A stretch of DNA of 64,000 bases from Notolepis coatsorum (Eukaryota; Chordata; Actinopteri; Aulopiformes; Paralepididae), in contig OZ020591.1 in assembly GCA_963971535.1 (NCBI GenBank), positions 22,501-86,500 on the forward strand. Direction: 5' to 3'. This document shows, piece by piece, positions 42,652-56,517 of this stretch (position 1 is the stretch's first letter; each line of letters begins with the position of its first letter). The notes beneath the pieces are model-generated. The model worked only from the letters and a program-made list of their open reading frames with translations, did no database searches and had not been told where the DNA came from. The position numbers were made by a program, and so were the translations under genes.

Positions 42652-43894
42652 ATTTGTGACACCTGGCAGCGCTAGTGACCACAACTCGGCCCGCCCCCTT
42701 CTAGTCTAGACGTGATTTTTTTTTTTTTTTTTTTTTTCATATTATTATAAATTGAATGTATAAGCACATATATACTATAAAAAAAAACGAACAGTTTTTA
42801 AAAATAGTAACAACCTTTGTTTAAAAGTAGGCTGTTCACGACATGATTTGCATTTGAATCGAATCTAAACCTTGGGGGGAGAGGCAGCCCGCAGCGCAAC
42901 GCCCACAAGACCTATACACCTGTTGGCACCTGGTGACACTTTTAATGTGTCTTGCGTTGAGAGATGGATGCAAAGAAGATCGCTGCTGAACTCAACAAAA
43001 TATCTGCTTCAGGAAGAGCCATCGATGGATCGCATTTAATGAATGGGTTCTTAATGGACTTTTTTTACCCAGGTCCAGTCCCCGAACCACCGCGCAAACC
43101 GGACTCTTCAGATGAAGAAGAAGATTCGGATGAAGACATATTGCCTGATATCGATCCGATACAGCAGCGCGCGGATGATTCTGAAGAGGAAGATGACTTA
43201 TTGCAGCGCGCGGATCAATCAGATTTAGAGGATGATTCTGTTCACAGCGGGACCGTCACACCGGGCTATTCAACGGAATTAACGATGAGACATGTCGCAG
43301 ATAAGATGTCTGTTGTAACCGTAGACAGTGACACCAATGAAGAATTGGAAAAAATAAGAACGTTTGATTGCAAATGCTATAAAGAGCGGAAAGAGAATTC
43401 CGAACGGCAGGAGTTGTCGTGTACAACAAAACTGTCGGAAGAATTGATATACAAAAGCAGACTGGACATGGCCTCGTTGACGCCTAAAGAGAGGGACATG
43501 TGTCTGCTCTCGGCTATACAAACAGGCATAAATGATTCTGAAGTCACACAAAGCACCAAGAGAGTAAACAGCATTCGCAAAGCTTCACGGACAGTGTACA
43601 GATTCCATAACGTCGTGGTCTGCCGGGCAACATTCTGCTTTCTCCATGGGTAAGTCTGTGCCATTATTATTCTGTGTGTATGTGTAACTATGAGGGATAA
43701 ATCCTCGTTTTTGACGCGCAATTAGAATAAACGTAATTCTGCTTGTAACATCCTAGTAGTATGCACAAACTCAGATGAATGTCATGGCAATCATAGTGTG
43801 ATGTCACAGTAGAACCGGTTAGTACAGGCTAGTATACATTCTGGAACATTCTGAATTGTGTTGTCATAGTAGTGATGTCATAGCAGACCCTTGA

Positions 43895-44400
43895 TTGATT
43901 AAGTTTATTAACAGATTGCAGAATGGGTACAGTACAGTACAGCTCAATACATACATACATACATCCCCCATTTTCAATTCATCATATGACACACACAACA
44001 TACAGATAGACAGTACTGCTACATCTATACATTTATGACATACCAGATTTTCAAATACAGTACTGTTTGTGATACTAAAAAAATCCAGAAAAAGAGTGTA
44101 TATACATTTGACATAGAAACATGTGCATTGGGGAGGTTGGGTAGGTGGGGTGGGGCTGTACATTGGAGTTGGGGGGGGGGGGGGGGGGGTTGGGTAGGGG
44201 GACACACACTGTACATTGGAATACTCACATACATTTGACATAGAAACTGTACATTGGAGGAGGTTGGGTAGGTGGGGTGGGGTTGGGTGGGGCTGTACAT
44301 TGGAATACTGACATTTGTAGGGGCCAGTTTTGAATTGCAGTCTCCCGTAGGTGTTCTTTGAGAGTGTTTTTGAAGGTGGGTAGTGATTCACATTCCTTCC
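43895..44400 (-). repeat. LINE C-terminus and 3' tail in intron 1 of copy A
   Basis: On the minus strand it reads VWKECESLPTFKNTLKEHLR, the extreme C-terminus of a LINE polymerase. This is followed by poly-G-rich sequence and the recurrent 3' end (CCCATTCTGCAATCTGTTAA). The equivalent in copy B is 50245-50730, so it predates the A-B split. Confidence 0.65.
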
Positions 44401-44403
44401 AGA

Positions 44404-52400: not shown

Positions 52401-55134
52401 TGTTTGGCGTACATTGTGAAGGGCTGACAAAGCAGGTGAATTACCTTATTGACGAAGGGATGGCCACGAGTAAGGGTAAGAGACTCCAAGATACCAACAT
52501 CTTCCCAGCCATAGCAGAGCTCTTGGTCACTTTATCTGTCTGTAAACTGTCCTTTCATTGTGTCCTTTAATATTTCCCATTACAGGTAGCAATGCTGTGA
52601 TCAGCTATCTGCATCATTACTTCAACAATTACGGCGTTGGAGAAACGAAAGTCGACCTGCACTGCGACAATTGCTCGGGCCAAAACAAGAACAACTACGT
52701 CTTGTGGTATTGTGCCTGGCGTACACTCCACCGACAGCACCTGCAGCTTGGTCTCCACTTCCTAATTACAGGCCACACTAAGTTTGGTCCCGACTGGTGC
52801 TTTGGTTTGATAAAGCAGGTATACAGGAAAACTGCAGTCGATACCCTGGCAGGCATCGCCGACATCGTGAGGAAAAGCTCTGAGGTAACCTAGTAAGGTT
52901 TAGTCGATAAACCAATGTACAGTTCCCCCCCCCACAATGTACAGTTTCTGCATCAAATACTCTTTTTTAACTCTTTTTGTATCACAAACCGTACTGTATT
53001 TGTAAATCACACACACACACACACAGATGGACCCTGCATCCATACACTCTGTAGACATTGACTTTTATTTTATCTTCCTAAAATTGTTTATTCTATTAGT
53101 CCCCTATACTGTCCAGATAGATGGACCATAGAAATGGACTATTTTATTGTATCTTCCTAATAATAATTATTGTTTATTAATTGTGCACTGTTGACAGCAC
53201 TGTAAATCACACACACACACACACACACACACACACACACACACACACACACACACACACACACACACACACACACACACACAGATGGACCCTGCATCCA
53301 TACACTCTGTAGACATTGACTTTTATTTTATCTTCCTAAAATTGTTTATTCTATTAGTCCCCTATACTGTCCAGATAGATGGACCATAGAAATGGACTAT
53401 TTTATTGTATCTTCCTAATAATAATTATTGTTTATTAATTGTGCACTGTTGACAGCACTGTAAATCACACACACACACACACACACACACACACACACAC
53501 ACACACACACACACACACACACACACACACACACACACAGATGGACCCTGCATCCATACACTCTGTAGACATTGACTTTTATTTTATCTTCCTAAAATTG
53601 TTTATTCTATTAGTCCCCTATACTGTCCAGATAGATGGACCATAGAAATGGACTATTTTATTGTATCTTCCTAATAATAATTATTGTTTATTAATTGTGC
53701 ACTGTTGACAGCACTGTAAATCACACACACACACACACACACACACACACACACACACACACACACACACACACACACACACACACACACACACACACAC
53801 ACACACACACACACACACACACAGATGGACCCTGCATCCATACACTCTGTAGACATTGACTTTTATTTTATCTTCCTAAAATTGTTTATTCTATTAGTCC
53901 CCTATACTGTCCAGATAGATGGACCATAGAAATGGACTATTTTATTGTATCTTCCTAATAATAATTAGAAGAAGAAAGAGGGGGAAGGGATACCACTTAT
54001 TTTGCTTGATTACAGACAGATTACAGACTTCTGAATGATTGTATTGTACCCATTCTGCAATCTGTTAATAACATTTTCAATCAATCAATCAGGTGAAAGG
54101 AGTCAATATCCCCCAACTTGTGGGAAGCGAAGATGGGACAGTGTTTGTCCGAAGCTACGACTGGCAGACACATTTGGGTGGCTTCTTCAAAAGGTTCCCA
54201 CAGATAAAGAAATACCAGCACTTCAGGTAATTGTCTATATTTTATTGTATATTGTATATATATTTTATCATAATAAAATAAGTAGAAGAAAGCAGGAAGC
54301 CGGACCAGCACACTCAGGTTTTCGCAGCCGAATACAGACATGTTTCGGAACAGGTGTTCCTTCTTCAGTGTATTATTATTATTATTATTATTATTATTAT
54401 TATTATTATTATTATTATTATTATTATTATTATTATTATTATTATTATTATTATTATTATTATTATTATTATTATTATTATTATTATTATTATTATTATT
54501 ATTATTATTATTATTATTATTATTATTATTATTATTATTATTATTATTATTATTATTATTATTATTATTATTATTATTATTGTTATTGTTATTATTATTT
54601 TTATTTTTTTATTTTTTTTTTTTACGAATGAGGAAATGTTTTCCTCCTGTTTTTTCTGTTCTTATCTTAGAGAATTTTGGTTTGCAAATATTGCAATAGG
54701 CTAATTTACTTAGCCCTATTAGCTATGATGAAGAAGGTTTATTTTGTTTCTGGTAATCAATGTACGAAATGTGTTGACATGGATGCTTGACTCACAGTGT
54801 CCTGGAGGCTGGGACCAGTGTTTTCTTTACGAAATAGACAATATTTTAAATGTGTTCTTTATTCTATTACAGCTTCGATGCCAGCAGACCTGGCATGGTG
54901 ACGGCGAAATTACACCGTGATGATGCTGAACCATTCGAGTTTCAACTGCTGAAAGACCCAAAACGCTACCCGACCATCTCCAATTTTCCAGTGATACCCC
55001 CACCCGGTCTGGACAATGACAGGCAGAATTATCTTTTTAAGGAGATAAGACAATACTGTTCTGATGCGGGAAAAGACATCACATGCCCGCGACCAACGTC
55101 TACAGCACCTCAGAACAAGACTGTACGATGTTAG
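49456..55134 (+). CDS. DUF7869-type putative transposase, intact seven-exon gene
   Basis: Exons: 49456-50129, 50876-51153, 51807-52141, 52334-52475, 52586-52884, 54093-54226, 54873-55134. All introns are GT-AG and phases agree, giving 707 codons from the ATG at 49456. Residues about 40-90 are acidic (DSSDEEEDSENE). FDCKCYK near 130 starts a Cys-containing region. IRKASRTVYRFHNVVVCRAT leads into a helix-rich part (ISCGLLKAIIKHYKTNG). Later come LPGRHPGHRD, DLCWECYKNNYQLS, DITMHYSFDYAQQVHYPS and LHCDNCSGQNKNNYVLWY, then GHTKFGPDWCFGLIKQ. This order matches the DUF7869 proteins common in fish and cnidarians. The LHxDNxSGQNKN block resembles an RNase H-fold catalytic strand. The transposase role is inferred from the flanking inverted repeats. 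An AATAAA lies near 55509. Confidence 0.85.
53005..53960 (+). repeat. Intron-5 array of CA runs plus a 190-bp unit
   Basis: Four units each carry a CA run followed by AGATGGACCCTGCATCCATA and about 190 bp of unit sequence ending near CACTGTAAATCA. CA runs differ in length (about 18, 74, 74 and 100 bp). The unit is derived from the element's own 3' flank (55254-55460), so part of the 3' end has been copied into intron 5 and amplified. Confidence 0.85.
54370..54599 (+). repeat. (TTA)n microsatellite
   Basis: About 73 TTA units in intron 6 of the copy B gene. Long Leu, Ile and Tyr runs in the three frames are artefacts. Confidence 0.98.
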
Positions 55135-56517
55135 ATACCCTCAAGACCAACGTCTACAGCACCTCAGAACAAGACTGTACGATGTTAGAAGACCCAACAC
55201 ACACAAAGATACAGATAAGTGCTGAGATCACACACACACACACACACACACACAGATGGACCCTGCATCCATACACTGTAGACATTGACTTTTATTTTAT
55301 CTTCCTAAAATTGTTTATTTTTTATTGTGATGTTACCTACTAAGATAAGATGATCCTTTATTAATCCCCTTGGGGAAATTCTGGTGTCAAAGCAGCATGG
55401 GGGGGGGGGGGTACATAGAAATGGACTATTTTATTGTATCTTCCTAATAATAATTATTGTTTATTAATTGTGCACTGTTGAGCTATATAACGCTGTCTGT
55501 ATAATGACAATAAAGACTCTAGAAATATTCTATTCTATTTAATTTTATTAAAGCACTTTGGTTTGTGCTTAAGCTCCTGTCTGTACAAGCTGGCAGAAGA
55601 CGAGCCAAATTAACTTCAATTAATATCTGAAACTACTAACCTTCATACCATCTTTTACTAGTATCCATCTTACTACTACTACCTACTATGCTAATAATGT
55701 CTATAGCTCAATACAAACAAGAGAATGAAGATCGGGTCCTGAGGAGAGATAACTGCCATGGCAGCACTTAATTATGTTAATGCTATTCAGGTGAGGGGCG
55801 TTGCTGGAGGGGGTTTGTTGACGCCCAGTTGAAACTGTCTGAAGTGTGAAAAGTTGCCTTCCTTTGAGACACCTTTTCACCTCTTAGGCAATCTAGAACA
55901 CAGCCAGTTTTAGAAGTTATAATTGGGCACATCGTGTTCAAAACATTCTCAGATGTCAACATATGACACATCATTTGAAAGCTTAGATTCTGTACTTTAG
56001 CAATCTGGAATAATCTGAAAAATGAAAATGTAGAGATCTGGCATAAAGCGCTGTGAGGTGACACATATATCACGTTCTGGAGAAAGCTGCAGAAAGAGAT
56101 GAAAACATACTTATACATTAGACCATACTTTACTATGAATATGTGAATGAAAAAGTTTAACGTTGCTACACAATGAACAATACATATAGGACTTTGAATG
56201 GGCCCTAATAATGGCAATGTAGCAATAGAATTTAAAAAGTTATAGCCCTGCAAAGAAGGGGACTTTCTCCATAGACAAATAGCGCTGGCAATCTATGGTA
56301 TATGATGAATTTAACCTTAGGCAGCCAAAGTGTTAAGTATCCTAGAATACAACCAGGTTTACAAGTTATAATTGAGCACATCGTGTTAAAAAGATTCTCA
56401 GATTTCAACATATGACACATCATTTGAAAGTTTAGATTCTGTACTTTAGCAATCTGGAATAATCTGAAAAATGAAAATGTAGAGATCTGGCACAAAGCGC
56501 TGTGAGGTGACACATTT

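Follow-up and report, generated by a model that had tools for sequence, protein, structure and literature searches.

We analysed a 64,000-nucleotide stretch of the genome of the fish Notolepis coatsorum (GenBank assembly GCA_963971535.1, contig OZ020591.1, positions 22,501 to 86,500 of the forward strand; hereafter the window, numbered from its first base), in which two insertions with 18-bp inverted ends, A (42656-56513, flanked by ATTT) and B (49085-56064, flanked by ATAT), lie one inside the other. We consider it very likely that A and B represent one DNA transposon family, most likely of Sola2 type, with a protein carrying the Pfam domain DUF7869 as its transposase. Strong support for DUF7869 as a DNA transposon's transposase, which the initial annotation of this DNA had proposed from the window alone, comes from empty sites, 4-bp target duplications, deleted derivatives, a predicted catalytic core with three aspartates (DDD), and bacterial homologues lying between inverted ends.

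Results

The initial annotation had placed the borders of both insertions by empty-site logic, and they are now borne out by the genome itself, in which further copies of each host carry the target site uninterrupted. For A, 274 candidate places were returned for the flanks joined with one ATTT; the 40 that were scored all aligned across the junction, with 95-100% identity, and each of the six loci read contained one ATTT and no insert. For B, the flanks joined with one ATAT aligned across the junction in seven of nine places, one of them identical over 100% of 400 bases and the remaining six at 85-96%, while of the other two one is the left flank of B itself and one a piece of 98 bases; all six loci read were uninterrupted, with ATAT itself in one (L041) and one base changed in the other five. 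Correspondingly, the TTAA-flanked element that hosts B has seven other places in the genome that match across B's site. The host of A is a repeated element on the minus strand (approximately 41000-42655 and 56518-57800), in which a 617-codon open frame spans the joined site, next to a C2H2-like stretch. That A sits within another transposase frame, as first annotated, holds to the extent that this long frame is open across the site, whereas the main frame matched no Pfam family at E <= 0.1; a transposase gene is a plausible identity for this host.

The ends and duplications described in the initial annotation are present in both insertions. The left end of A (42656-42673, plus strand) reads GTGACACCTGGCAGCGCT and its right end (56496-56513, minus strand; reverse complement) reads GTGTCACCTCACAGCGCT, between ATTT copies at 42652-42655 and 56514-56517, the same tetranucleotide that is single at the empty sites. 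The left end of B (49085-49102, plus strand) reads GTGTCACTTGGCAGCGCT and its right end (56047-56064, minus strand) is identical to that of A, between ATAT copies at 49081-49084 and 56065-56068. In each insertion, 15 of the 18 positions are the same in the left and the right end. When the genome (3.42 Gb in 4787 contigs) was searched for the left-end pattern GTGWCACYTGGCAGCGCT, 171 exact matches were returned, versus 0 for a control in which the pattern was read backwards, and AWWT directly precedes 163 of the 171. In a sample of 20 left ends, taken from the top of the list with ~9.8 kb each, a right end was found downstream in 14, and none was within reach in six with up to three mismatches allowed. 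The 4-bp flanks were identical in 12 of the 14 two-ended copies (nine ATAT, plus AATT, AAAT, and ATTT) and unequal in L016 and L028. Agreement of flanks is by itself weak evidence because ATAT is common, and the empty sites therefore weigh most; still, flanks agreed in three of the four two-ended copies whose left flank is other than ATAT, as does the ATTT of A. Matches to nine bases of the end at 17374 and 41220 of the window were attributed to chance, there being no similarity to B at either place.

Element B (6980 bp, plus strand) contains a complete DUF7869 gene of seven exons with GT-AG introns and a 707-residue product: exon 1 (49456-50129) holds the start codon and a C-x-C motif, exon 2 (50876-51153) and exon 3 (51807-52141, with a CxxC motif) follow, then exon 4 (52334-52475), exon 5 (52586-52884), exon 6 (54093-54226), and exon 7 with the stop codon (54873-55134), all on the plus strand. 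The closest named homologues of the protein are fish proteins, and its sole Pfam match at E <= 1 is DUF7869 (E 1.5e-14, residues 453-633). The protein is predicted to fold into an RNase H-like core of the integrase/transposase kind, as the initial annotation had anticipated, and the aspartate triad is kept in 119 of 120 sequences at each position in one alignment (A2) and in 73 of 73 in another (A3). By hand placement, the triad in B comprises residue 425 in exon 3 (codon 52127-52129) and residues 504 (52666-52668) and 546 (52792-52794) in exon 5. Structure comparison gave the best Z to a retroviral integrase catalytic core, and the Mos1/mariner and Sleeping Beauty transposases also matched in the RNase H-like core. 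A sequence search of the PDB gave two matches (E 0.41 and 1.2), both unrelated, and Foldseek without realignment returned nothing at E <= 0.001, its top rows being TnsB, MutS-beta, and others with poor root-mean-square deviation. On the evidence as a whole, the DUF7869 domain is very probably a transposase catalytic core. Separately, intron 5 of B contains, by eye, several tandem units of ~250-260 bp at 52990-54030, each with a (CA)n run.

The initial annotation counted two copies of the multi-exon gene, which is right for B and only partly so for A, a copy that retains exons 1-4 and lacks exons 5-7, and with them most of the DUF7869 core. The matches in A, on the plus strand, are to exon 1 (42964-43660, 93% identical to B), exon 2 (45345-45623, with a 1-base deletion), exon 3 (46219-46557), and exon 4 (46749-46896). 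Internally deleted derivatives with the same ends as B also occur among the sampled copies: viewed from the ends, five of the 20 sampled elements contain exons and one contains all seven (L023; 6537 bp, flanked by ATAT left and right, exons 1 and 7 with small indels), the part-bearing copies being L018, L021, L024, and L032, while the remaining 15 have little or no exon sequence in common with B (in L016, 4% of exon 1). Between B and L023, 22 of 705 codons changed synonymously and 15 non-synonymously, which suggests constraint on the protein; the corresponding counts against L032 are 13 and 11 of 476. Against A they are 18 and 34 of 475, a pattern that suggests decay or relaxed selection in A.

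Relatives of the protein also occur in bacteria, where a scan of GTDB contigs returned 27 pattern matches and six relatives (32-35% identical) from Desulfocicer, three other Deltaproteobacteria or Desulfobacteraceae metagenome-assembled genomes (MAGs), a Legionellales MAG, and Thiomargarita. The Desulfocicer element has a single 657-residue frame and perfect inverted arms of 43 nt, including flanking AAAT/ATTT. Six bacterial elements have two ends, namely L001 (2116 bp, AAAT/ATTT, the DUF7869 frame occupying 1974 bp), L002 (2108 bp, AATT/AATT), L005 (2067 bp, AAAT/AAAT), L006 (2044 bp, ATTT/ATTT), L055 (2715 bp, AAAT/ATAT), and L056 (2339 bp, AAAT/ATAT), and all 12 of their flanking tetranucleotides are AWWT. 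One end each was found for L003 (AATT) and L004 (ATAT), and no ends were found for L053 and L054. L001-L005 have in common an end that differs from GGGGNGTTGTCTGACAAAACCTACCTTCGGGTGAA by 2-5 mismatches; this end, of ~35 bp, is conserved between Deltaproteobacteria and the Legionellales MAG, with the ends of L055 and L056 partly similar to it and that of L006 different.

Within the class of L001's genome, DUF7869 scored over the cut-off in seven of 389 genomes, three of which were already in the GTDB scan, and an order-level search returned the same seven of 389. In the class of L006's genome, two of 369 genomes matched and one was over the cut-off, this being the starting genome itself, and none of 14 control genomes reached the cut-off in either class search. 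Searching for relatives of the bacterial protein scored 551, of which 120 were listed, with sources mostly lacking a taxon; none of the 120 is named a transposase, and the longest contig exceeds 5 kb in eight of them, which would fit a tendency of multicopy elements to break assemblies. Bacterial DUF7869 proteins are mostly unnamed or hypothetical, and one, P0138 of Candidatus Magnetoglobus, is called a "chaperonin" in NCBI and UniRef, apparently wrongly. Two scans of viral contigs gave 11 and 29 pattern matches with no relative among them, and plasmids gave no match. A weak Pfam match in L057 was set aside, as its 308-residue frame looks unrelated, and L052, a short bacterial frame of 175 residues that matches DUF7869 weakly (E 3.9e-4), may be the remains of a more remote relative.

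The nesting order in the window is A, then a TTAA-flanked element (48398-56332, with other copies in the genome), then B, which therefore lies inside A. The TTAA element has ends CACTTTGAGTGCC and CACTTTGGCTGCC and is flanked by TTAA duplications at 48394-48397 and 56333-56336, which agrees with the first description of B as inserted in a TTAA element. Either side of this element, the sequence of A runs on, by eye, as B does at the corresponding place.

Discussion

The original paper on the Sola superfamily is reportedly that of Bao et al. 2009. In the excerpts available of later accounts, Sola comprises DDD-transposase elements with 4-bp duplications that occur in bacteria and metazoans, mostly measure 2-9 kb, and have ends of 11-1124 bp (PMC10741241), and Sola2 has ends of 12-13 bp or 21 bp and AT-rich 4-bp duplications of the form AWWT, e.g., ATAT, AAAT, and ATTT (PMC3627910). 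As far as those excerpts extend, the present family resembles Sola2 in its probable DDD transposase, here with a predicted RNase H-like core, in a duplication of 4 bp (12 of 14 two-ended copies, and the single site at empty loci), and in an AWWT target (before 163 of 171 left ends); it resembles Sola more broadly in having ends of at least 11 bp and a length within 2-9 kb (18-bp ends, B at 6980 bp, L023 at 6537 bp) and in a host range of bacteria and animals. It differs in that neither the ends of the A/B family nor the name DUF7869 was met in these partial Sola descriptions, and no paper naming DUF7869, or with its motif strings, was found in the literature searched. The initial annotation had recognised no named superfamily in this combination, which was probably a misjudgement, as a DDD transposase together with short ends and 4-bp duplications of the AWWT form is how the excerpted accounts describe Sola2. 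We infer Sola2 membership from features, the comparison having been with published descriptions rather than with Sola2 reference sequences, and on that footing we regard it as highly probable.

Other known systems fit less well. Retroviral integrases are alike in core fold (best Z) and differ in that the DUF7869 element, a DNA transposon, has inverted ends of its own; moreover, the third catalytic residue of integrases is Glu, versus Asp in DUF7869. The piggyBac target duplication is TTAA, whereas those of A and B are AWWT, and the TTAA element of the window is a separate element. Chapaev has a target duplication of 4 bp. The duplication length of the A/B family is thus similar to those of Chapaev and of Academ, for which the excerpted account gives 3 or 4 bp in AcademX (PMC10045372), but the B protein matches only DUF7869 in Pfam at E <= 1. 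The Mos1/mariner and Sleeping Beauty transposases are alike in the RNase H-like core by structure comparison, whereas the mariner-type duplication is a 2-bp TA in the excerpt (PMC10741241), against 4-bp AWWT here, and the PDB sequence search gave no significant match.

The strongest rival explanation is that DUF7869 elements form a DDD superfamily of their own and are merely Sola2-like in duplication and end length. Several observations weigh toward this rival: the link to Sola2 runs through shared features; DUF7869 is of unknown function in Pfam; two DUF7869 proteins scanned against NCBIfam had no model over the cut-off; and the domain's name is missing from the literature searched. That only three of the six two-ended bacterial elements have equal flanks also weighs against our assignment. 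Yet the DDD triad, AWWT 4-bp duplications, short ends, element size, and joint occurrence in bacteria and animals all fit Sola/Sola2 as described in the excerpts, and we hold a separate superfamily to be unlikely. It is similarly doubtful that DUF7869 and its bacterial relatives together constitute such a superfamily, in which the bacterial members would make up an insertion-sequence family not described before and sharing a conserved ~35-bp end. Far less probable is that another protein is the transposase, with the DUF7869 gene carried along as a passenger or as a captured host gene; Sola2 elements can carry passengers, Fanzor1 among them (PMC3627910, in excerpt), and 15 of 20 sampled copies are essentially without DUF7869 exons, which also counts against our assignment, but the predicted fold and triad are of the transposase kind and the DUF7869 frame fills nearly the whole of bacterial L001. 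Finally, although ATAT-rich flanks could by themselves mimic duplications, it is barely conceivable that the ends and duplications are due to chance, or to misassembly around a gene family with many copies, given 171 left ends against no control match, empty sites of A and B each with a single 4-bp site, and exact duplications in three of four two-ended copies with a non-ATAT left flank and likewise in A.

Under the transposase reading, the N-terminal C-x-C/CxxC and helical regions would bind the element ends, and the DDD site would cut both ends using metal ions. The cut ends would then be joined to an AWWT target at positions staggered by 4 bp, repair of which would yield the target duplication. 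A deleted copy like A would depend for its movement on transposase supplied by an intact one.

Conclusions

The useful part of these results is that DUF7869, together with its relatives in bacteria, is given a probable role; the Sola2 type itself was already described. Listed in Pfam as of unknown function and occurring in fish, molluscs, echinoderms, annelids, sponges, and bacteria, the domain becomes a likely transposase catalytic core with defined ends, target site, and catalytic residues. Animal genes annotated with DUF7869 hence deserve suspicion as transposon genes, and bacterial DUF7869 proteins as insertion-sequence transposases, with the bacterial elements offering a compact system for the biochemistry of the DUF7869 group.

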